Of a stretch of 64,000 bases of DNA, positions 203-13,417 are shown piece after piece (within the stretch, counting starts at the first letter, position 1; each line of letters starts with the position of its first letter). The position numbers and the translations under genes are program-made. This stretch comes from Polaribacter sp. Hel_I_88 (GTDB lineage: Bacteria; Bacteroidota; Bacteroidia; Flavobacteriales; Flavobacteriaceae). Under the pieces are notes generated by a model. The model was not told the DNA's origin. It saw nothing but the letters and a program-made list of their open reading frames with translations, and made no database searches. The stretch spans positions 1,364,001-1,428,000 of the forward strand of contig NZ_JHZZ01000001.1 of the NCBI RefSeq assembly GCF_000687935.1, read 5' to 3'.

Positions 203-1129
203 ATGTTTAAAACACTTCTAAAAAATTCTATCGCAAGTTTATTAATTGTTTCTTTCTTGTTTTCATCTTGTGCAAGCCATAAAAGATCTAACATACAATC
301 TAACGAAAATTTTGTGGTTGAATTAACAAAACCAAAGGCAAGAGGAGGAATTACAACTGCTGCTTTAGAGGGACTTTTTATGGGTGCAAAATATTTGGTT
401 GATAATTCTACAAAAAAATTGATCAATACCTACACAAACTCTATTTCTATAAACGATTATTACAATAATTTTTCTGGTAAAATTGAAAAAACATATACAG
501 GAATTCAGCTTAAAAAGTATGCAAACCCAATAGAAAGTGAACAGAAAACGGAAATGAAATCTATAATGACTCGTGAAATTGATGTGAAACCGAAATCTAG
601 AGGTGCAAAAGCAACCACTGTTTTAGCGTTAGATGATTTTTTCCCGAAAGAAAATGATGATTTATTAAATTTTCATGCAGTTATCGATTTTGAAAGTGAT
701 GAAGGAAATCCTGGTGTAACGCGTTTAAGTTTTAGTGAATTGAGAGTCTTTTTCTCTAAAACAAAAGTTTTTACTGATGAAAACTTAAATGCGCGTGTAT
801 TAATTTCCATTGAAGGACAATGGAGAAGCACAGATGGTTCTCCGCAAACTGCTACTTTAATTGAGCAAGAATATGATTTTAAAAACATTAAATATGGTTA
901 CAAAAACCAGATTGATGAACCAATCTTAACAAAATGGTATTATGATATTCCTATTTTAGCTGAATTGGAAGAAAATGCAACGTATGGAGTTATAAAAGTA
1001 AACGTTCAGTTAGAGGAATATGAAGGAAATAAAAGTAAATACTTAAATAAATTGCCTTCTATTTTAAGTGATAACAAAAGTGCTATTATTAAAAATGGTT
1101 CTTCTACAATTAATAAAATTGTAGATTAG
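203..1129 (+). CDS. Secreted lipoprotein with two KPKxRG motifs (caspase locus)
   Basis: This 308-residue protein has a signal peptide ending in a lipobox (LFSSC, lipid Cys at 23), so it is probably an envelope lipoprotein. I do not recognise a family. Two short basic motifs stand out: KPKARGG at about 43-49 and KPKSRGAK at about 129-136. Both resemble the Arg-Gly processing loop of the caspase encoded at 5679-7667 and the SRGGKSRGTK motif of the protein at 7686-9095. The gene is convergent with the caspase operon, with about 120 bp between stops. Inference: it may be a substrate or partner of those proteases. The remainder looks like a mixed alpha/beta periplasmic domain. Confidence 0.75.
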   Translation: MFKTLLKNSIASLLIVSFLFSSCASHKRSNIQSNENFVVELTKPKARGGITTAALEGLFMGAKYLVDNSTKKLINTYTNSISINDYYNNFSGKIEKTYTGIQLKKYANPIESEQKTEMKSIMTREIDVKPKSRGAKATTVLALDDFFPKENDDLLNFHAVIDFESDEGNPGVTRLSFSELRVFFSKTKVFTDENLNARVLISIEGQWRSTDGSPQTATLIEQEYDFKNIKYGYKNQIDEPILTKWYYDIPILAELEENATYGVIKVNVQLEEYEGNKSKYLNKLPSILSDNKSAIIKNGSSTINKIVD

Positions 1130-1249
1130 TTATAGAAATCTGTAACTTTTATCAACCAAAATTTTTTGTTTTTACTTTAAAATTTTAAGAAAAATGAAGT
1201 GCCTTTTTATTCGAAACATGGCAAAAAATTTTAATATATAATTTAGTAA

Positions 1250-4200
1250 TTACCAAAGAATTGCTTTTGCCAATTTGTTAATTTCTCTCATATCCATTTT
1301 TTGTTTACCCTTTGTAATCGAGAGCAATAAAGTTTTCAAATTACTAGAAATTAAATCAAAATGTTTATCCTTATTAATAGAATATTCTAAGTTGAAGTTT
1401 TGTGTGGTTTGTTTGTTAATATGAGTGTCTAGCGCTTTCAAATAAGCACTGGTAAAGGCGCCATTATAAATATTATTAGACTCGAAAGCAACCTCTTGTC
1501 CTGAAGAAGCTGATAGTACAGTAATTCCGTTTTTACTATAAAAATTATCAAAAATCGAAGAGATGATGGCTGACGTTTTAATGTCTGTAGCATTTGTACT
1601 ATCTGCTGTAATTGTTCCTCTTTGTCCTGGTATTATTTTTTGTTCTTTCGTGTTATTTTTTACTAGGTCAAACGTATTTCCTGAATGGCAAGTATCTGTA
1701 ATTAATAGCTTTTGAATTGCTGGAGAATCAGACAAAATATTTACCAATGACGCATAAGAAACCCCTTTTTTATCGGGTTTATTAAAATCCATATCTTGAG
1801 GCGCATAATAATAATCTAGTTTTTTATTTAGGACTCCATGTCCAGCTAAAAATAAAATAATTTGATCTTCGGCCTTAGCATTTTTAAAAAATGAATTGGC
1901 TACTTCTACAATGTTTTTAGAAGAGGCTTCTTTGTTTGTTAATGTTTTTACATACGTGTTTTTATAGGAAAATGGTTTCGCTTTTAAAGAACTCAAAAAC
2001 TCATTAATACTTTTATGCTTTTCATATAACAAATCATTATTTTCTTTTACACCTGGCTTTAATAAAAGCGGAGTACCATAATTATTTCCTACTAATTGTA
2101 AATCATTAAAATTACTTATTTTGGTTACGTTAACAGTCATTTTCTTAGTAGGAATAACATATGTTAGTAAAGTAAGATATTCATCATATTTGTTAAAAGT
2201 TACAATTTTAGTATTGTCTTTACTTATAAAAGCCTCTTCAATATCGGTTTCAAAATTTATGGTTGTTGCAGAATAATTGCCATTTATCAGCCTAAATAAA
2301 CTATACTTAATTTCGTAATCTGAGTAGTGTTTTATCAACACTAAAGAGCCATCATTATTTACATCTAAAATGGATACCAAATCTGAAAGCTCAATATTTA
2401 ATACATGCTTTTTTTTGCTCCAAACCTTATTTTTCCTTGTATTTATTGATACACATAATCGAGTTTCTTCATCATCTTCTGAATTGGTTAATTCATAGTA
2501 AGATTCATTTGTAGTTAACCAATCATCATCATTTATTGGGTAAGATAACTCAATGTTAAAAGGGATATTTGTTTTTTTTGTTTCCTTCTTTTTATAGTCG
2601 TAAAAATAAACATCAGAAACCAATCCTTCGTTTTCGTTATAATTTCTAGCGCTATAATAAAAACCCAAATTATTAGCATGACTTTTAAAAGTTGGTATTT
2701 CCATATGTAAAGAAACACCATTTTCAAGTGGTATTTTATTTACAGAATTATTTTTAAAATCATATATGTTGATGGCTTTAACCTTATTATTTTCATCATT
2801 TACACCAAAAACTGCCTCGCCCCAAAAGGTTCCGTCTTTTGAAAGTTGAAAAGTATATGGGTAACCTCTTTCAAAAAAGTTAAAGACAGCATTAATATTT
2901 CCTAAAATACTATCTGTTTTTGAGTTGTCATCAATTTTGGAAATCGCCAAAGGATAAATAGCGTTTAAATAATTCGTAATACTTTTTGCGCCAACATCCC
3001 CATATCTTAAAGCCAAGTCCAATGCATCTTTATGCGCATAATTAAGTTTGTAATTTTTGTCTTTATAATTTGAAACTCCAACTGACAGAACATATAAATT
3101 TCTTGGAATTTTATATTCATACAGTATTTCTTTAACTACAGGAATTGATTTCTCCTTGTTATACAAACTAGTAATTTCTACCACATTTATATGTTGACTT
3201 AAATTTATGTCCGTTTCATAAATTGTTGGAGCAACTTTTTTAAAAGTCAAGTTGTTTTGAACTACATTATTAATTTTTATTATAAAATTATATGGTAAAT
3301 CTTGTGCTACTTCAATATGTATTTTGGTGCTTAAAGAATTGGTTTTTAAGGACGCTTTATGATCTGAAATATAAAAACTTTTAATGGCGAAACTTTTCTT
3401 AGGCGGTTCTCTTTTTAGTTGATTTCTTATGCTTAAAGCTTCTTCAATTTTGCTTTTTAATGGTGTATCAATTTTACTAAAATCTGACAGAATTGAAACA
3501 GGGTCATACAAAGAACTACCATATTCAATTAATAAATACCTCTTGTTATTTTTAGTTAAAAATAAATAATCATTTACATCCTCAAAATTACTATAATACT
3601 TCCCTTTTGTATTAAATATCAAGCTTTTATTATCTGGAAAATTAATGATTGTATTTAACCATGTAAACGTTTTAGTTTCTAATAACCTTGTTTTACCACT
3701 AGAAAAATTCACAAACATTTTTGATGCATCTGAATTTAAAGAAATTGATGTTGCAAAGCCATCAAGACTATTTATCTTGAAACTCTTACCATTAAAAACC
3801 ACCCCATCTTCAAATAACATTGCTAGTTGATTGTTTTTATAGTCGGCTGATAAAACCAAACCATCTTTTAGCTCCTTAATTTTAAAAGCACCATCTACTT
3901 CTGTTATAAAAAAAGAAACATTGCTTTGAGTTTCCTCATTTGTCCCAGAAACAATGAAGTTATTGTTATTGATTTGAAATATATTTTTATTATAATATGA
4001 AGTAAAATTATAGCTTAATAGCTGTTTCTTTTTTTTCCAATCTATGATTCTTATCACTTTATTTTTCATCAAACAGATATATGTTCCAGAATTAGAGAAT
4101 TTAACTTTATCTTCTTGCGTTAAAGTTGAATCGATAACAATACTGTTCTCTTTAGTAACAATTTTTAGTTTTGAATTTGGTTTATAGAGGTCATCTGATT

Positions 4201-5677
4201 CTTTATTGTATTCAACAATAAAAGCATCCACCTTAGCATTAAAAGCTAAAGGATTATCATCTTTATCCCTTTTAGAGATTTTTTGAATTTTATCATTTAA
4301 TAAATTATAACTATAATAAAAAGATTCTTGACTCACTGAATCCTTACTTATATAACCAATACTAGTTTCTTCTTTATCAATTAAATGTTCATTAAAATTT
4401 TCGTAATTCAATTTGAAATTTTTTCCAGAAGTTTTAAAAAAAGAGTTAGATTGTTTGTCTTTCTTTATAAAACTATTTGATAAATCTCCTTTTTTGTAGA
4501 AGTTAAAAACTTTGTCATTAGACTCTAAAGTGTTAAAGGAAATCCAATGATCATTAGAAATAAAGAGAGATTTTGATGCAATATATTCTTTAACAAACAG
4601 GTTTTTTTCTAAAAGATTATAGTCTGAATCAAGTACATTTATTTCTCCATTAATTTGAAAATAATTTTGTCCAGAAAAAAATACATATTCATTTTTAACT
4701 TTATTGAATGTTCCTATACTAGCTTTAAACTTTAAAGGAATCTCTTTTACAACATAAGAATTATCCTGTAAATTTAAGTCCATACAACTATTTGCTCCAA
4801 AACCTCCACTTTCTTGATCACTAAAAATAAGTACGTTATTTCTATTATTTGATATAATCTTTGTGCTTGCAAAACTTGTGTAAAAGGTATTTGTACCTAG
4901 TTTTTTAATTTTATAATCAGTTAAAGAAATTCTATTGAATTCAGATGAATTTCTTTGTTGATTTGAAGTAAGTAAAAAAAGGCTTTCTTTTTCAAAAACG
5001 ATGGCAGATGGTATTTTAGTTTTATCACTAAACTTTATATTATGTATCTTTTTTTTACGTTCAAGATCATAAAAATTTAATGTTTTTATTTCCAAAGAAT
5101 CATTTATTGCTTTGGGTCCAGGATTAATGTGTACTTCTTCTAAAACAGCTATACGCTTTTCATTAAAAGAAATTGTAGAAACAAGTACTGGTTTATTTGT
5201 AGTAATAGAATCTATTTTTTTAAAAGGAAACTTGTTGTATAAAATTAGGTTCGTATCATCTTTGGCAATCGCAATTAAAGACTCTCCATTAGGATTTGTA
5301 ATTTTATAATTTCCTGAGATGGTTTTATAAATGGTATCTTTATTTAAACTATAGAAACATAATTCTCCTTTTTTAGTGTCTTTATTATAGTAATTTATTA
5401 ATAAATCTTTGTTGTTATTAATGAGCCTAATGTTAAAAACTGACTTTCTTTTATCAGTATTTAAAGACCTTATAAATTTATAGTTTGAGGCATCATGAAC
5501 TAAAATATTTCCATAAGAATCCGCAGAAATAATTTCATTTAATTCTTCGTTTATAACAATATCATTTAATTCTCCCTTATGATATTTATGAATATTTAAT
5601 TCATATTCTATTTTTTCTTGACCTAATGAAGAATAAATTATAAAAAATAGAAAAAAATAATTTATTGGTTTTAACAT
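1250..5677 (-). CDS. Giant secreted beta-propeller/caspase-fold protein with interrupted p20 domain
   Basis: This 1475-residue protein begins with a signal peptide (about 1-19). Residues about 25-760 are beta-rich, WD40/propeller-like repeats, followed by a beta-sandwich-like stretch to about 855. The caspase p20 fold starts at about 857 (YVLSVGVSNYKD, then NYAHKDALDLA). It is then interrupted by about 330 residues of further propeller-like sequence and resumes near 1235. The catalytic dyad is visible: His1280 in FLAGHG and Cys1330 in DTCHSG. A GQRGT motif at about 1351-1355 lies in the p20-p10 linker, and p10 follows (ITVLSASSGQEVAFE). The start lies one base beyond the stop of the upstream caspase gene, so the two are probably co-transcribed. 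Family: peptidase C14. The substrate is unknown. Confidence 0.85.
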   Translation of the reverse strand: MLKPINYFFLFFIIYSSLGQEKIEYELNIHKYHKGELNDIVINEELNEIISADSYGNILVHDASNYKFIRSLNTDKRKSVFNIRLINNNKDLLINYYNKDTKKGELCFYSLNKDTIYKTISGNYKITNPNGESLIAIAKDDTNLILYNKFPFKKIDSITTNKPVLVSTISFNEKRIAVLEEVHINPGPKAINDSLEIKTLNFYDLERKKKIHNIKFSDKTKIPSAIVFEKESLFLLTSNQQRNSSEFNRISLTDYKIKKLGTNTFYTSFASTKIISNNRNNVLIFSDQESGGFGANSCMDLNLQDNSYVVKEIPLKFKASIGTFNKVKNEYVFFSGQNYFQINGEINVLDSDYNLLEKNLFVKEYIASKSLFISNDHWISFNTLESNDKVFNFYKKGDLSNSFIKKDKQSNSFFKTSGKNFKLNYENFNEHLIDKEETSIGYISKDSVSQESFYYSYNLLNDKIQKISKRDKDDNPLAFNAKVDAFIVEYNKESDDLYKPNSKLKIVTKENSIVIDSTLTQEDKVKFSNSGTYICLMKNKVIRIIDWKKKKQLLSYNFTSYYNKNIFQINNNNFIVSGTNEETQSNVSFFITEVDGAFKIKELKDGLVLSADYKNNQLAMLFEDGVVFNGKSFKINSLDGFATSISLNSDASKMFVNFSSGKTRLLETKTFTWLNTIINFPDNKSLIFNTKGKYYSNFEDVNDYLFLTKNNKRYLLIEYGSSLYDPVSILSDFSKIDTPLKSKIEEALSIRNQLKREPPKKSFAIKSFYISDHKASLKTNSLSTKIHIEVAQDLPYNFIIKINNVVQNNLTFKKVAPTIYETDINLSQHINVVEITSLYNKEKSIPVVKEILYEYKIPRNLYVLSVGVSNYKDKNYKLNYAHKDALDLALRYGDVGAKSITNYLNAIYPLAISKIDDNSKTDSILGNINAVFNFFERGYPYTFQLSKDGTFWGEAVFGVNDENNKVKAINIYDFKNNSVNKIPLENGVSLHMEIPTFKSHANNLGFYYSARNYNENEGLVSDVYFYDYKKKETKKTNIPFNIELSYPINDDDWLTTNESYYELTNSEDDEETRLCVSINTRKNKVWSKKKHVLNIELSDLVSILDVNNDGSLVLIKHYSDYEIKYSLFRLINGNYSATTINFETDIEEAFISKDNTKIVTFNKYDEYLTLLTYVIPTKKMTVNVTKISNFNDLQLVGNNYGTPLLLKPGVKENNDLLYEKHKSINEFLSSLKAKPFSYKNTYVKTLTNKEASSKNIVEVANSFFKNAKAEDQIILFLAGHGVLNKKLDYYYAPQDMDFNKPDKKGVSYASLVNILSDSPAIQKLLITDTCHSGNTFDLVKNNTKEQKIIPGQRGTITADSTNATDIKTSAIISSIFDNFYSKNGITVLSASSGQEVAFESNNIYNGAFTSAYLKALDTHINKQTTQNFNLEYSINKDKHFDLISSNLKTLLLSITKGKQKMDMREINKLAKAILW

Positions 5678-5678
5678 T

Positions 5679-7667
5679 TTACTCCTTTACAATCTCATAA
5701 ATAATTTCAGAAGTATACCCATCTACTTTGTCTGAAACTACAAGAACATCTCCTTGTCCTCTTGAATTTAAAAAACTATTATTTACAAAACTAGCTAAAG
5801 GATTTAAAGCACCTCTTTTACCTTCAATTTCTCCTCTATTTTTTATGGTGGATGCAATATTTATTGGATATGGAGATGCAATACATTTCATCACTAATTT
5901 CTCAAAAGGAGGACCGTAGTTCATAATTTTATCGCTAAAAAGAACCGTTTTTCCTTTTTCTATCAACCTTTCTTGGTCGTTCATTTTAAAGCGATCACTA
6001 GGAAAAATACTATTGATTTCTCCTTTAGAATTTACCTCAATAATCGTAAAATATAAATCTTGTTCTGAATGATTGGTAACTTCAAAAACTAACTTGTCTT
6101 TTCCTGGCACAATCGTTAAAACATTATTTCTCATAATGTCTTCTGGTTTGCCAATTTCATTTTCTTCTGTTAAAATATTTAATTTTACAGGCAAAGCTCT
6201 AAAAGTAAATTCGTATTTTTTGTTGTTGAAGTTCAGCTTTTTCATATAAGAACCATGTGCATAGGTAGACAATGTTTCCTTTAAACTTTTCAGATTTTCA
6301 GGATTCATGTTTTCTTCAATAACACTAAATCCGTTGGTTGCATAAACGTTCAATAGATTATTTTTCTCTGTAATTATAAGATCAGAACCTAACGAATCTA
6401 CAACTTTACCTAGTTTTGTTTCTTTTAAAAAATTTGTTACTTCACTTTTAACCTCTTTGTTTTTTACACTTTTATCAAAAGCGATATTTAAAGAGATTTC
6501 ACCAAAACTTTTCTTATCAATAAAAACAACATAATCTTTTTCATTTTTGCTCTTTAAATCATTGTTTAATAAAATATTACTTTCATTAAATTTTGCAAGC
6601 ACAACTTTTCCTTTTGCTATAATTTTAGTGGAATCTAATTGAGTTTCGCCAACTGGCATTAAAAAAACAGTTGTTCCTTTAAACATTCCTTGCAACTTTC
6701 CTGCTTGAATTTTTATAGCATTGCTTGCCAAAATATTTTTAATCTTAAAATATTCTTCTTGCTTAACATACTCATTTTTAAACAGCTTTATATCTTGATC
6801 TCCTTCTATTCCTGGGTTTTGATTTGGAGAAAATGTATTCATTTTAGAAGCAATCACATCAAATAATTGTCTATAAGAAAAATCTGAACCTAAATCGCTC
6901 ATGGCTTCAGAAAAAGCGTAGCTTAAAGCTCCATAACCTTCTGGATGTTCGTAGTTTAATTCGTCTGCAGAAGCTCCAGAAATTAAAACATAAGGGGCAG
7001 CATTTTCGTCTACTTTTACTTCATCAAACATATCACTTCCTTGCACTTTTGCATTTTTGCTTGGCTCCCACCCTTCAGGTGCAAATACATTTTTGGTACC
7101 TCTTGCTTTTCCTCCTCTTGCAGAAGAGCCTGAATGACAGCTATCTAACAACAATAATAATTGTCCGTTTTTACCTAATGTATTTCTTAAATTGGTGGTA
7201 ATTTTTGCCAATTCATCATCTCTAATATGGTTTTCGCCTTTATAATTATAAGTGTAAGAAGCCATTGCATCAACAGGTACTAAAGCTTCATCTTTATCAT
7301 CTGCTTCGTCTAAAGTGCCATCTTCACTGCTATCAAAAATAGGTTGTCCATGTCCTGAATAATGAATTACAACAACATCGCCTTCTTTTATTTTAGTTTC
7401 TTGTAATTCCTTAAAAGCATTTAAAATTCCTTTTTTAGTAGCTTCTCTATCAACTAAAGTCGTTATATTTTCAGGGTTGAAACCTTGTCTTTCTAACGTT
7501 TCTTTGATTAAAGGCACATCATTTGCAGAACTAATTGCACCCCAACCTGTGCTTCTTGGATACTCTCCAATCGCAATAATTAAAGCATGTTTTGTGGTTT
7601 TTGTTTCTTGAGAATATGCAAAACTACTTGCAAAAATGAACATCAATAGTATGTAAAAATTTTTCAT
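5679..7667 (-). CDS. Secreted metacaspase-like (C14) protease with DUF4384-like C-terminus
   Basis: The protein has 662 residues. A signal peptide (about 1-20) precedes a caspase domain: HALIIAIGEYP at 27-37, His106 in HYSGHG and Cys177 in LDSCHSG. Directly after the Cys is a basic loop, ARGGKARGTK (183-192), in the position where metacaspases and orthocaspases are known to autoprocess after Arg or Lys. The p10 part (YVLISGASADE) follows near 226. Residues about 525-605 resemble DUF4384. More RG sites occur near the C-terminus (611, 618, 636). It is the middle gene of a three-gene operon, 18 bp after the upstream gene. Arg/Lys specificity is family knowledge; the role here is inferred. Confidence 0.88.
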   Translation of the reverse strand: MKNFYILLMFIFASSFAYSQETKTTKHALIIAIGEYPRSTGWGAISSANDVPLIKETLERQGFNPENITTLVDREATKKGILNAFKELQETKIKEGDVVVIHYSGHGQPIFDSSEDGTLDEADDKDEALVPVDAMASYTYNYKGENHIRDDELAKITTNLRNTLGKNGQLLLLLDSCHSGSSARGGKARGTKNVFAPEGWEPSKNAKVQGSDMFDEVKVDENAAPYVLISGASADELNYEHPEGYGALSYAFSEAMSDLGSDFSYRQLFDVIASKMNTFSPNQNPGIEGDQDIKLFKNEYVKQEEYFKIKNILASNAIKIQAGKLQGMFKGTTVFLMPVGETQLDSTKIIAKGKVVLAKFNESNILLNNDLKSKNEKDYVVFIDKKSFGEISLNIAFDKSVKNKEVKSEVTNFLKETKLGKVVDSLGSDLIITEKNNLLNVYATNGFSVIEENMNPENLKSLKETLSTYAHGSYMKKLNFNNKKYEFTFRALPVKLNILTEENEIGKPEDIMRNNVLTIVPGKDKLVFEVTNHSEQDLYFTIIEVNSKGEINSIFPSDRFKMNDQERLIEKGKTVLFSDKIMNYGPPFEKLVMKCIASPYPINIASTIKNRGEIEGKRGALNPLASFVNNSFLNSRGQGDVLVVSDKVDGYTSEIIYEIVKE

Positions 7668-7685
7668 AATTTATATTTAAAAAAA

Positions 7686-9095
7686 TTATTTAATTTCAAA
7701 AAGACTAAATGAGATTCCGAAATAATATCCAAAATCATACACTGATTTATTAAAAGAATCTAAATCTGTAATGGTTGTTGCATCACCAACTTCTAATCCG
7801 TTTGTAAGTCTGTTTACAGTTCCATAAGCAACACCTCCAGATAAAGAGATTCTGCTTTTACTGCCTAAAAATATGGTTGGACCCAATAAAAAATTGATTC
7901 CTCTGGTTTCTCCAGTAATTGGGATTGAAACCCCAAAAGAACCACCTAAATTAAAGTTTTCGCTCATCACTGGATAAAAATTGATCATAGTACTGATGTT
8001 TGGAGTTGAACTATTCCCAACATCTTCGCCAATAATTCCATTTTCATCGATGTAAAAATCTTTTGCTTTTGTTCCAAAATTGTTTAATGTTAAAGCAATA
8101 CTCGAGTTTATTTTGAAACCACCTTTAGAAAATAATTTTAAACTTCTTGTTTTTATCAAGTTATCTTCTGTTTCTGTGCCATTTGCCGTTTCAGAAAACG
8201 CACTTTGTAAAAAGTTAAGTTCAATAGCAACTTTGTCAGATTCTATGGTATAATCATATGTTTGCTCAAAGTTTGAAGCCTCTAAACTTGTAAACAAATC
8301 TTTAATCTTATTTAAATTTTCGGCTGTGTTTAATTGGGTTGAATTAATGCTTTTCTTTAACGCTTCTAAATTTCTATACGTATTGCTTTTTTGAACCAAT
8401 TCTCCTCTAGACATTGGTTTTTCGCCATTCAAAGTACTGTCTATTTCTGTGGAAATATTTTCAATCTCGTTTGATAATTGAGTTGCGTCTTCTTGAACAG
8501 CATTGTTTAAGTTTGATAAAAACAAGTAATAATTATCATTAGGATTCGACAATCTACTATCTTTAAGTTGCGAAGATGCCTCTTTTAGGTTCTTCATAAT
8601 CTCTTTTTTATCAAAATTTGGGTTTAATAAATTTGATAAAAAAGACGTTTTCACAGCTTCAATATTGGTAGTTAATTTGTTTAAATCTGCAAATTGATTG
8701 CTAACTTTTGTTCCTCTAGATTTTCCTCCTCTGGATAAAAACGAACTTTCTTTGGCAACATTATCAATATTTAAATTTAAGCTTTCGCCAGAAAAAGAAT
8801 TCATACCACCCAGTAAAGAACTAAAGTTAAAGCCACCCATTTTTGGGTGAATAGCTTCTTCTTTAACATCCGTTTTTATAGCAACTGCAAAAGGATTTAC
8901 ATTGATAAGTTTTAATTCAATTAAACTATTTCTTTTAAATTTTGGCCCAGAAAGTGTGTCTGCAATATTGTTAAGTTTATCTAACTTATAATAATTAATT
9001 TCTTCAGTTTGGTAATTATAGGTAACTCTATATTTTTCTTGAGCAATAATAACAGTAACAAAAAATAAAAGGAAAAACGTAAGTAGCTTTTTCAT
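7686..9095 (-). CDS. Exported outer-membrane-like protein carrying an SRGGKSRGTK motif
   Basis: The protein has 469 residues and no family I can name. A signal peptide (about 1-18) is followed by a soluble half with coiled-coil-like helices (about 135-275). The C-terminal half (about 360-469) has alternating hydrophobic and aromatic strands, as expected for an outer-membrane beta-barrel. The motif SRGGKSRGTK (121-130) matches 8 of 10 residues of the basic loop after the catalytic Cys of the neighbouring caspase, and a further MSRGE lies near 228-232. It is the first gene of the caspase operon. Inference: it is cleaved by the protease in the linker between its N-terminal part and the helices or barrel. 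Confidence 0.75.
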   Translation of the reverse strand: MKKLLTFFLLFFVTVIIAQEKYRVTYNYQTEEINYYKLDKLNNIADTLSGPKFKRNSLIELKLINVNPFAVAIKTDVKEEAIHPKMGGFNFSSLLGGMNSFSGESLNLNIDNVAKESSFLSRGGKSRGTKVSNQFADLNKLTTNIEAVKTSFLSNLLNPNFDKKEIMKNLKEASSQLKDSRLSNPNDNYYLFLSNLNNAVQEDATQLSNEIENISTEIDSTLNGEKPMSRGELVQKSNTYRNLEALKKSINSTQLNTAENLNKIKDLFTSLEASNFEQTYDYTIESDKVAIELNFLQSAFSETANGTETEDNLIKTRSLKLFSKGGFKINSSIALTLNNFGTKAKDFYIDENGIIGEDVGNSSTPNISTMINFYPVMSENFNLGGSFGVSIPITGETRGINFLLGPTIFLGSKSRISLSGGVAYGTVNRLTNGLEVGDATTITDLDSFNKSVYDFGYYFGISFSLFEIK

Positions 9096-11552: not shown

Positions 11553-11560
11553 TATCTTTG
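11553..11560 (+). promoter_or_regulatory. -7 box immediately before the TPR gene
   Basis: TATCTTTG matches TAnnTTTG exactly and ends six bases before ATG 11567. If used, the transcript would start at or next to the initiation codon. Confidence 0.5.
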
Positions 11561-11566
11561 ATTCTT

Positions 11567-13417
11567 ATGAAGAATTTTTTTTTAATAATTTTTCTGATAA
11601 TTAGCAACTTTTCCTTTGCTCAAGAAGTTCAAATGGAAAATGATCAGAATACTTTTTTTTTAGCAGAAACTTACTATAGAGAAGGAGAATATGAAAAAGC
11701 TACTCAAATTTATAAAAAATTATACGATAAAAGTTCTTTTAACACAAGTTATTTAACGCGCTTAATTTCTTGCTATCAAGAAACCGATAAATTTTTAATA
11801 GCAGAAAATTTGCTAAAAGCACGTATTGAAAAAAATCCTTCTCAAACTTTTTTATATGTTTACTTAGGATATAATTTCGAAAAACAACAGCTAAATGAAC
11901 TTGCCAAAACAAACTACGAAAAAGCCATAAATTCTTTACATGAAAATGCTAGTTATGCTGGTATTATTGGGCGTCTTTTTAAAGAATACAATCTTTTAAG
12001 TTATGCTATTTTAGCTTACGAAAAAGCAATGGAAGCTAACGAAAATGCTGATTATAATTTTCAAATTGCACAGATTTATGGTGAGCAAGGTGAGTACAAA
12101 CAAATGTTTGAATCGTATATTAATTTGGTTGATAAAAACGAAAGCTACCTCAACTTAGTCCAAAGATACGCAAGCAGGTATATTACTGATGACCCAGAAA
12201 GTGAAACTAATATTTTGTTCAGAAAAACACTTTTAAGAAAGGCTGCAAGCAACCCAAAAAACGAATGGAATATTCTTTTAAGCTGGTTATTTGCACAACA
12301 AAAAGATTATGGAAAAGCTTTAATTCAAGAAAAAGCTTTGTATCAAAGAAATTCGGGTGATTTAGTAGAAATTTTTAGTTTAGGTAAGATTGCTTTCCAG
12401 AATAAAGACTATCAAACTGCAAAAGAATGTTTTACTTTTATTGATGAAAAATCTCTTTTAAAAGAAGAAAAAATTGATGCTAACTTGTATTTGGCAAAAA
12501 TTGCTGTTGCTACGAAAAACCCTGAAACAGAAACGCTTTTTCAAAATTTATTTACCAAATTTGGCAAAAGCCCGCAAACAATAGAGTTGCAAGTTGCATA
12601 CGCAGATTTTTTAACCTTTACCAAAAACGAACCTTTACAAGCAAGTAGTGTTTTAGAGGAAGCTTTAACCTATTCCCAATCTAAATTTGATGAAGGTAGG
12701 ATTAAATTAAAATTAGGCGAAGTTTTAGTTTTTAGAGGATTGTTTAACAAAGCATTGATTTATTTTTCGCAAATTCAAACACAATTAAAAGGCTCTGAAA
12801 TTGCACAACAAGCTCGTTTTAAAGTAGCACAAACTAGCTATTTTAAGGGCGATTTTGATTGGGCAAAAGCACAATTAAAAGTTTTAAAAGGTTCAACTAC
12901 ACAATTAATTGCTAATGATGCAGTCGATTTATTTTTAAGAATTACAGATAATGAACCTGTAGATTCCATTCCTTCTGGTTTAAAACAATTGGCAAAAGCA
13001 GAATTGTTTGCGTATCAAAATAAAAACGAAGATGCTTTAGAGGAACTTGCAAATCTTTTATCGCCTAAAAAACAAAATACAGAAGAATTTTTGACAGAAG
13101 GTTTAGCTGTTTCTGGAATAGCAATTCCTGGTGAAGTTATTTATGATGATGTTTTGTTTTTACAGGCAAAACTATTCATCAAACAAGAAAAATATGATGA
13201 TGCAATTACAAGCCTAGAGAAAATTATTGCAGCAGATAACCAAGGTTTTTTAACAGATGATGTTTATTATTTAATGGCAGAAACTTATAACGAAAACTTA
13301 AATGACATTGAAAAAGCAAAAGAGTATTATCAAAAAATAATTTTTGACCATCCATCAAGTATTTATTTGGTTGATGCTAGAAAAAAATTTAGAAAATTGA
13401 GAGGAGATAGTATTTAG
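11567..13417 (+). CDS. Periplasmic TPR-repeat protein
   Basis: A 616-residue protein starting MKNFFLIIFLIISNFSFAQ has a signal peptide with cleavage expected after about residue 19. The rest is a long series of helical pairs of TPR type (for example YYREGEYEKATQIYKKLY and KYDDAITSLEKIIAADNQ), so it is a scaffold for protein contacts in the periplasm. The last repeat, AKEYYQKIIFDHPSSIYLVDARKKFRKLRG, resembles the YfgC/BamD-like TPR found in envelope assembly proteins. No catalytic motif is seen. I prefer ATG 11567 over a TTG nine bases earlier because that TTG is part of the -7 box. Confidence 0.85.
   Translation: MKNFFLIIFLIISNFSFAQEVQMENDQNTFFLAETYYREGEYEKATQIYKKLYDKSSFNTSYLTRLISCYQETDKFLIAENLLKARIEKNPSQTFLYVYLGYNFEKQQLNELAKTNYEKAINSLHENASYAGIIGRLFKEYNLLSYAILAYEKAMEANENADYNFQIAQIYGEQGEYKQMFESYINLVDKNESYLNLVQRYASRYITDDPESETNILFRKTLLRKAASNPKNEWNILLSWLFAQQKDYGKALIQEKALYQRNSGDLVEIFSLGKIAFQNKDYQTAKECFTFIDEKSLLKEEKIDANLYLAKIAVATKNPETETLFQNLFTKFGKSPQTIELQVAYADFLTFTKNEPLQASSVLEEALTYSQSKFDEGRIKLKLGEVLVFRGLFNKALIYFSQIQTQLKGSEIAQQARFKVAQTSYFKGDFDWAKAQLKVLKGSTTQLIANDAVDLFLRITDNEPVDSIPSGLKQLAKAELFAYQNKNEDALEELANLLSPKKQNTEEFLTEGLAVSGIAIPGEVIYDDVLFLQAKLFIKQEKYDDAITSLEKIIAADNQGFLTDDVYYLMAETYNENLNDIEKAKEYYQKIIFDHPSSIYLVDARKKFRKLRGDSI

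Follow-up and report, generated by a model that had tools for sequence, protein, structure and literature searches.

The 64,000-base window analysed here, the whole stretch G000:C1:1364001-1428000 of Polaribacter sp. Hel_I_88 (G000 is the 4.0 Mb source genome), carries near its start the genes for two caspase-like proteases, an exported-like partner protein and a lipoprotein, and our subject is the short arginine-glycine (RG) motif that these proteins share and that is predicted to be a site of proteolytic cleavage. Among the matches listed, the closest named homologues come from Polaribacter. The minus-strand genes run in the order partner (469 residues), caspase (662 residues) and giant caspase (1475 residues) and are likely to form one operon, because the gaps between them are only 18 and 1 bases; the lipoprotein gene, on the plus strand, is convergent with this operon and lies outside it in this genome. 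The features are as follows, with percentages taken from the family alignments described below.

203..1129, plus strand: lipoprotein of 308 residues with lipobox Cys23, a predicted substrate (sequence, homologues, AlphaFold2 model)
341..346, plus strand: lipoprotein site 1, R47-G48, with T/S/A at P2 (R 99%, G 96% of 121 sequences)
599..604, plus strand: lipoprotein site 2, R133-G134, in PK[ST]RG (R 100%, G 98% of 121)
1250..5677, minus strand: giant exported-like caspase of 1475 residues with a C-terminal caspase domain
1616..1621, minus strand: RG site of the giant caspase, R1353-G1354, in the p20-p10 linker (GQRGTI)
5679..7667, minus strand: exported-like metacaspase-type caspase of 662 residues, the predicted protease of the cascade (Pfam C14)
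5757..5762, minus strand: caspase C-terminal site R636-G637 (R 100%, G 92% of 119)
5832..5837, minus strand: caspase C-terminal site R611-G612 (R 92%, G 100% of 119)
7092..7121, minus strand: caspase ARGGKARGTK with RG sites R184 and R189, predicted self-processing (R184 99%, R189 100% of 119)
7137..7139, minus strand: predicted catalytic Cys177 of the caspase (118 of 119, one gap)
7350..7352, minus strand: predicted catalytic His106 of the caspase (119 of 119)
7686..9095, minus strand: exported-like partner of 469 residues, 18 bases upstream of the caspase
7695..8267, minus strand: predicted outer-membrane-type beta barrel of the partner, residues 277-467 (AlphaFold2 strands, Foldseek)
8403..8408, minus strand: partner site 2, R230-G231, in [ST]RGEL (R and G 100% of 120)
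8706..8735, minus strand: partner SRGGKSRGTK with the conserved site R127-G128 (R 100%, G 99% of 120; flanks 41%)

The 662-residue caspase matches Pfam PF00656 (C14) with 80.1 bits against a cut-off of 21.4 (E 2.6e-22), and ten of its eleven matches among solved structures are named metacaspases, the best being 4f6o (Metacaspase-1, E 2e-18). Asp50, Ser104 and His106 are present in all 119 aligned sequences, and Asp175 and Cys177 in 118, with one gap. Metacaspases cleave after Arg or Lys, and the S1-pocket residues of TbMCA2 are Asp95, Ser156 and Asp211 (PMC4357240); from alignments to solved relatives other than TbMCA2, we infer that Asp50, Ser104 and Asp175 are their counterparts. These pocket residues, together with the kinship to metacaspases, point to Arg specificity for the window's enzyme. 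The NCBIfam model for the EACC1-associated caspase, NF047832 (cut-off 140), stays below its cut-off in both the 662-residue protein (29.3 bits) and the 1475-residue one (62.3 bits), as it does in two tandem caspases discussed below (58.3 and 50.9 bits). Judging from their signal sequences, the caspase, the partner and the lipoprotein would all be exported and located outside the cytoplasm. The giant caspase has beta-propeller Pfam matches in its N-terminal part, far below cut-off.

An earlier note on this DNA had described RG motifs in all four proteins, and each of those described lies where it was claimed to be. The caspase (5679-7667, minus strand) carries DSCHSGSSARGGKARGTK, so that ARGGKARGTK comes right after the catalytic cysteine, with the first RG seven residues beyond Cys177 and both R184 and R189 within the p20-p10 linker; the partner (7686-9095, minus strand) has SRGGKSRGTK, identical to the caspase 10-mer at 8 of 10 positions; the lipoprotein (203-1129, plus strand) has both KPKARGG and KPKSRGAK; and the p20-p10 linker of the giant caspase (1250-5677, minus strand) contains its GQRGT, read as IPGQRGTI. 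In the whole 4.0 Mb genome, a degenerate DNA pattern that encodes R-G-[GASTR]-K-x-R-G-T has two matches, the caspase and partner genes, and its reversed control has none. When the caspase and partner were compared by BLASTP, the motif was the sole match (E 0.019); no similarity was found between caspase and lipoprotein or between partner and lipoprotein (best E 2.2 and 0.45), and a profile comparison of the last two likewise gave no match (probability 1.9%). We considered the possibility that RG is simply commonplace in exported proteins of this genome and rejected it, since the four proteins have 13 RG in 2914 residues and 13 other exported-like open reading frames of the window have 3 in 3349.

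What is conserved in the wider families is not the 10-mer, which is confined to one lineage, but the shorter [S/T/A]-R-G. Searches at E<=1e-3 gave at least 796 homologues of the caspase, at least 273 of the partner and 205 of the lipoprotein, and alignments were made from the best 120 of each family (119 sequences for the caspase, where one fragment, P0010 of 524 residues, was left out; 120 for the partner; and 121 for the lipoprotein, being the window protein and 120 others). The three reference proteins contain eleven RG pairs, of which eight are conserved at 92-100%: four in the caspase (R184/G185, R189/G190, R611/G612 and R636/G637, 92-100%), two in the partner (R127/G128 and R230/G231, 99-100%) and two in the lipoprotein (R47/G48 and R133/G134, 96-100%). 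All eight sites follow a common pattern, with Ser, Thr or Ala at P2 (88-99%), Arg at P1 and Gly at P1' (92-100%). The flanks vary widely at six of the eight, though not at R184 and R189, which lie beside the catalytic cysteine. Being lineage-specific, the 10-mer identity was ruled out as the signal itself; the first RG of the partner 10-mer, R122, is kept in 12% of the 120 sequences, and the conserved one is R127. The additional RG sites that had been pointed out in the caspase and the partner divide in the same manner, with R611, R636 and R230 conserved but neither R398 of the partner (10%) nor R618 of the caspase (53%).

The isolation of these pairs was scored as dipeptide conservation minus flank conservation, over all 1388 dipeptides of the three families. 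The eight conserved sites rank 1, 2, 3, 5, 18, 19, 74 and 204, so that six stand in the top 19; caspase R636-G637 takes first place overall, and lipoprotein R133-G134 is the most isolated conserved pair of the 291 in its own family. None of 100000 random draws of 11 positions reached the observed RG score. The density of [STA]RG per 1000 residues is 7.1, 5.0 and 6.5 in the three families, and two families of exported proteins taken as controls have 0.22 and 0.35 (30 and 10 sequences, out of 52 and 11 matched genomes).

Structural models cover the partner and the lipoprotein. For the partner, AlphaFold2 (alignment of 70 sequences; mean predicted local distance difference test score, pLDDT, 77) gives a beta domain at residues 21-79, a disordered stretch at 81-126 that ends at R127, helices at 128-156, 163-175 and 189-222, a loop at 223-229, a helix at 230-273 that starts at R230, and strands at 277-467. 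The C-terminal part of the partner is predicted to be an outer-membrane-type beta barrel: 12 of the top 15 Foldseek rows are outer-membrane barrels, including FadL, Ail, AlkL, OmpT and NanC, though TM scores are low and the best E is 8.8e-4. The lipoprotein, for which no Pfam family scored above cut-off, has an invariant Cys23 in a 55-sequence alignment; in the model built from 55 sequences (mean pLDDT 71), R47 opens a predicted disordered stretch (46-73) just after a predicted strand (33-42), and R133 falls within another (132-139). By these models, all four predicted substrate sites lie in or beside flexible segments.

The families also travel together, as the earlier note had suggested they should if they form a system. 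The caspase (E<=1e-20), the partner and the lipoprotein (both E<=1e-10) were sought in the same 397 genomes of the family, with about 3-5 candidates scored per genome. The caspase was found in seven (G000, G194, G195, G208, G216, G253 and G451), the partner in these seven and in G161, where a contig end cuts the partner, and the lipoprotein in six, namely the caspase genomes without G208, whose locus lies on a 13-kb contig; it is also missing from G161. All three thus fall within the same 8 of 397 genomes, and no other of the 397 was matched by any of them at these cut-offs. These genomes are related to each other, G253 and G451 belonging to the same genus. Among homologues whose longest contig is at least 10 kb, caspase and partner have 19 contigs in common, partner and lipoprotein 18, and caspase and lipoprotein 10, contigs being paired by equal length only. 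The giant caspase, the fourth family of the earlier note, is exchangeable in the loci read, where giant caspases differ from one to the next. No other protease covered by the searches accompanies the predicted substrates as constantly as the 662-residue caspase does.

By comparison, these observations lend good support to the interpretation first offered, of a protease and substrates that share a motif. Two of the findings that would have refuted it, loss of the motifs in orthologues and families that do not occur together, were looked for and not seen. We consider it probable that the caspase cuts after the Arg of a shared [S/T/A]-R-G, first in itself and then in the partner and in the lipoprotein, and that it would in this way act as a switch of an envelope protease network; we infer that the 662-residue caspase is the protease acting at all of the sites. 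In such a scheme an envelope signal would activate a caspase, with CHASE2 or propeller-type proteins as candidate sensors; the caspase would process itself at R184/R189 and trim its own C-terminal part at R611/R636. Its cut at R47 would free the lipoprotein body from the lipidated N-terminal strand and it would nick the same protein at R133, while cuts at R127 and R230 would separate the helix joined to the partner's barrel from the beta domain and the first helices. Other zymogens of the neighbourhood would be activated by the caspase in turn.

The network is wider than the four proteins visible in the earlier note. We read the loci of 11 genomes or records, and the gene neighbourhood is conserved. 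Large proteins can contain RG by chance, and the isolated-pair test was run on the caspase, partner and lipoprotein, the neighbouring families being too small for it. In all seven of the exported-looking CHAT, tandem-caspase and caspase-TPR proteins measured, RG precedes the catalytic domain, as delimited by Pfam, by about 10-21 residues: at 721 and 140 in the CHAT proteins (domains from 731 and 160), at 307 and 289 in the tandem caspases (327 and 310), and at 24, 24 and 26 in the caspase-TPR proteins (40, 38 and 42). The minus-strand reference sequences of two G216 proteins began one codon late, which shifts Pfam positions by one, and the G216 Pfam start has been corrected. Such RG sites just ahead of the catalytic domain in neighbouring enzymes strengthen the idea that partner proteins are cut.

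An exported-like protease of the trypsin type, fused to ankyrin repeats (L024:9371-10912, L026:9813-11354, L028:2448-4004, L030:2264-3793, L031:15399-16967 and L098:165-1700) has [PST]RGV[FY]G[DEN]DDRK after the signal peptide in all six sequences. The best solved match of its protease part, which has the chymotrypsin fold, is the glutamyl endopeptidase 1p3c (E 3.4e-4 with a single sequence, 1.8e-5 with a profile), in an alignment that starts beyond the N-terminus. The RG, shortly after the signal peptide, is likely to mark a propeptide junction. The trypsin-like domain was found (E<=1e-10) in 6 of 140 family genomes; five are caspase genomes, and the sixth, G219, in which no caspase was found, has a weak partial match to a distant homologue without any RG, with an Arg near the aligned place by eye. 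In G000 the trypsin-like-ankyrin gene was not found at 1e-10, the only match being a weak and partial one to another protease. RG also lies upstream of the hydrolase domain in a DUF900 hydrolase (two sequences), mid-chain in a protein of 240-262 residues (three sequences), and in the linkers of other propeller-caspases as RGTI, RGTV or YRGSS; the CHASE2 membrane protein has no RG in any of three sequences.

Several points weigh against the proposal. Three of the eleven reference RG pairs are not conserved (ranks 450, 702 and 1318), and the RG positions tested came from sequences in which RG had already been noticed. One control family, the TPR protein at 11558-13417 of the window, keeps LRGD in 97% of its 30 sequences, at the extreme C-terminus; this falls outside the range of the isolated-pair test, and the overall RG density of that family is 2.78 per 1000 residues. 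The P2 rule is broken in giant caspases, which have K, Q, I or Y there, and by F in two of the three 240-262-residue proteins, and in G451 and G253 the linker of the 1487-residue propeller-type caspase reads KGS instead of RG. In an order-wide search (395 genomes, E<=1e-40, again with about 3-5 candidates scored in each) the caspase was found in two genomes, G000 and G093, and in the 19 kb read around the latter there is neither the 469-residue partner nor the lipoprotein. Signal peptides were assigned by eye and with a crude hydropathy rule.

Alternatively, the RG sites might be cut by another exported protease specific for Arg, whether of the clostripain, gingipain or trypsin type or a further caspase, the 662-residue caspase being one more zymogen substrate; the caspase does bear four such sites itself, as a substrate would, there are several further proteases in the same loci, and in Porphyromonas gingivalis one protease type, RgpA/B, processes the lipoproteins Mfa1, Mfa3 and Mfa4 at Arg (PMC5789003). 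The 662-residue caspase is, however, present in seven of the eight partner genomes, and in the eighth the partner is cut by a contig end, whereas the trypsin-like-ankyrin gene is missing from G000 and the giant caspases vary between loci, so that among the candidates covered, which did not extend to a search for clostripain- or gingipain-type genes, we regard another cutter as unlikely. We give still less weight to the idea that the sites are not cut and serve as docking or inhibitory motifs filling the caspase S1 pocket, or as conserved turns. Binding alone can indeed conserve a motif, but several features here are typical of cleavage: sites shortly before catalytic domains, two sites in each partner protein, disordered surroundings and a position in the p20-p10 linker. 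This linker is cut after K263 and R307 in CgMCA-I, a fungal metacaspase (PMC9622860). That the likeness of the 10-mers came from chance, shared ancestry or recombination fits the restriction of the 8 of 10 identity to the lineage in which it was noticed; given isolated conservation in three otherwise dissimilar families and a score that no random draw attained, we hold this to be extremely improbable, and for the [S/T/A]RG sites the family alignments refute it.

We found no description of a system of this kind in the open-access literature, which was the extent of the search. One multi-protease system, the type III-B CRISPR SAVED-CHAT/prokaryotic caspase cascade reportedly described by Steens in 2024, is said to have CHAT and caspase proteases acting in series. 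That cascade is reportedly cytoplasmic and driven by a second messenger, unlike the present proteins, which are predicted to be exported and are tied to an RG site. No SAVED domain or CRISPR locus was seen among the proteins scanned with Pfam, most neighbours being unscanned and CRISPR arrays not sought; with NF041237 (type III-E Craspase TPR-CHAT, Csx29; cut-off 300) the CHAT protein of G194 scores 29 bits and the TPR-CHAT protein of G216 is not listed.

The caspase resembles metacaspases and orthocaspases (MEROPS C14B) in fold, His-Cys dyad, S1 acids and linker sites of the Arg/Lys type, and differs from them in its predicted export, in a long C-terminal part with more RG sites, and in gene linkage to families that share the site. 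There are earlier notes of prokaryotic metacaspases that may have signal peptides and that occur in multi-caspase operons (PMC3501461). The conflict systems of Kaur et al. (2020) bring together caspase, trypsin-like and alpha/beta-hydrolase genes, and cascades were proposed for them (PMC7159879); their cores are of the MoxR-vWA, GTPase or NucA-nuclease kind, none of which was recognised here among 22 proteins scanned with Pfam, and no shared cut site or envelope substrate was noticed for them.

The closest precedent is the gingipain processing of Mfa1-type lipoproteins, and one step here may work alike. RgpA/B cut Mfa1 at Arg49, Mfa3 at Arg43 and Mfa4 at Arg54, each in the loop that follows the first beta-strand (PMC5789003), and in the present lipoprotein, as in this maturation of Mfa1/FimA-type fimbrial lipoproteins by an exported clan-CD Arg protease of P. 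gingivalis, a lipobox cysteine (Cys23) is followed by an Arg (R47, 99% of 121) after a predicted strand (33-42). The differences are that the protease here is C14 metacaspase-like where theirs is C25, and that a barrel-type partner and other zymogens are among the substrates predicted here.

To our knowledge, few of the natural substrates on which bacterial caspases act have been identified. In the present case conservation is enough to suggest a protease, the proteins that it would cut and the precise bonds, and the function of an exported caspase thus becomes testable with one enzyme and two substrates. If the proposal is true, it would add an envelope-located multi-protease zymogen cascade to those of bacteria and tie caspase-fold enzymes to outer-membrane proteins. 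A larger scheme, which we put forward tentatively and think rather unlikely, is a bacterial analogue of apoptosis or complement in the envelope. One exported caspase would act at a universal [S/T/A]-R-G activation site, cut after the Arg, that nine or more exported families share. It would set off further caspases and zymogens of the CHAT and trypsin-like kinds and would loosen a helical bundle from an outer-membrane barrel, and an envelope insult, with CHASE2, propeller or ankyrin proteins as its sensors, would thus lead to outer-membrane breach or surface remodelling.

Five further large genes lie directly upstream of the window (G000:C1:1347613-1364092), the last of them ending at window base 92. 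They encode a tandem caspase of 921 residues, a caspase-TPR protein of 1010 residues, a YD/RHS-repeat protein of 569 residues and propeller-type caspases of 1505 and 1379 residues; each has an N-terminal hydrophobic stretch, by eye, and each caspase among them has an RG site. The 569-residue DUF6531/YD-repeat protein (G000:C1:1353410-1355119) sits between caspases in three Polaribacter-type loci and has FTRGNQ in all three. In the tandem caspases (L050:1586-3295, L028:8884-10542 and G000:C1:1347613-1350378) a caspase-like N-terminal half, recognised by eye, is followed by an RG linker and a C14 domain, which has DVC[FY]GA at the place of CHSG in others. The G093 locus (G093:C24:94417-98397, L015) is a three-gene cluster of a caspase, a CHASE2-like membrane protein and an exported-like protein of 262 residues; in P. 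vadi (L016) and in G194 (L048), too, CHASE2 is found next to a small protein of similar kind, and it is possible that the two form a sensor module.

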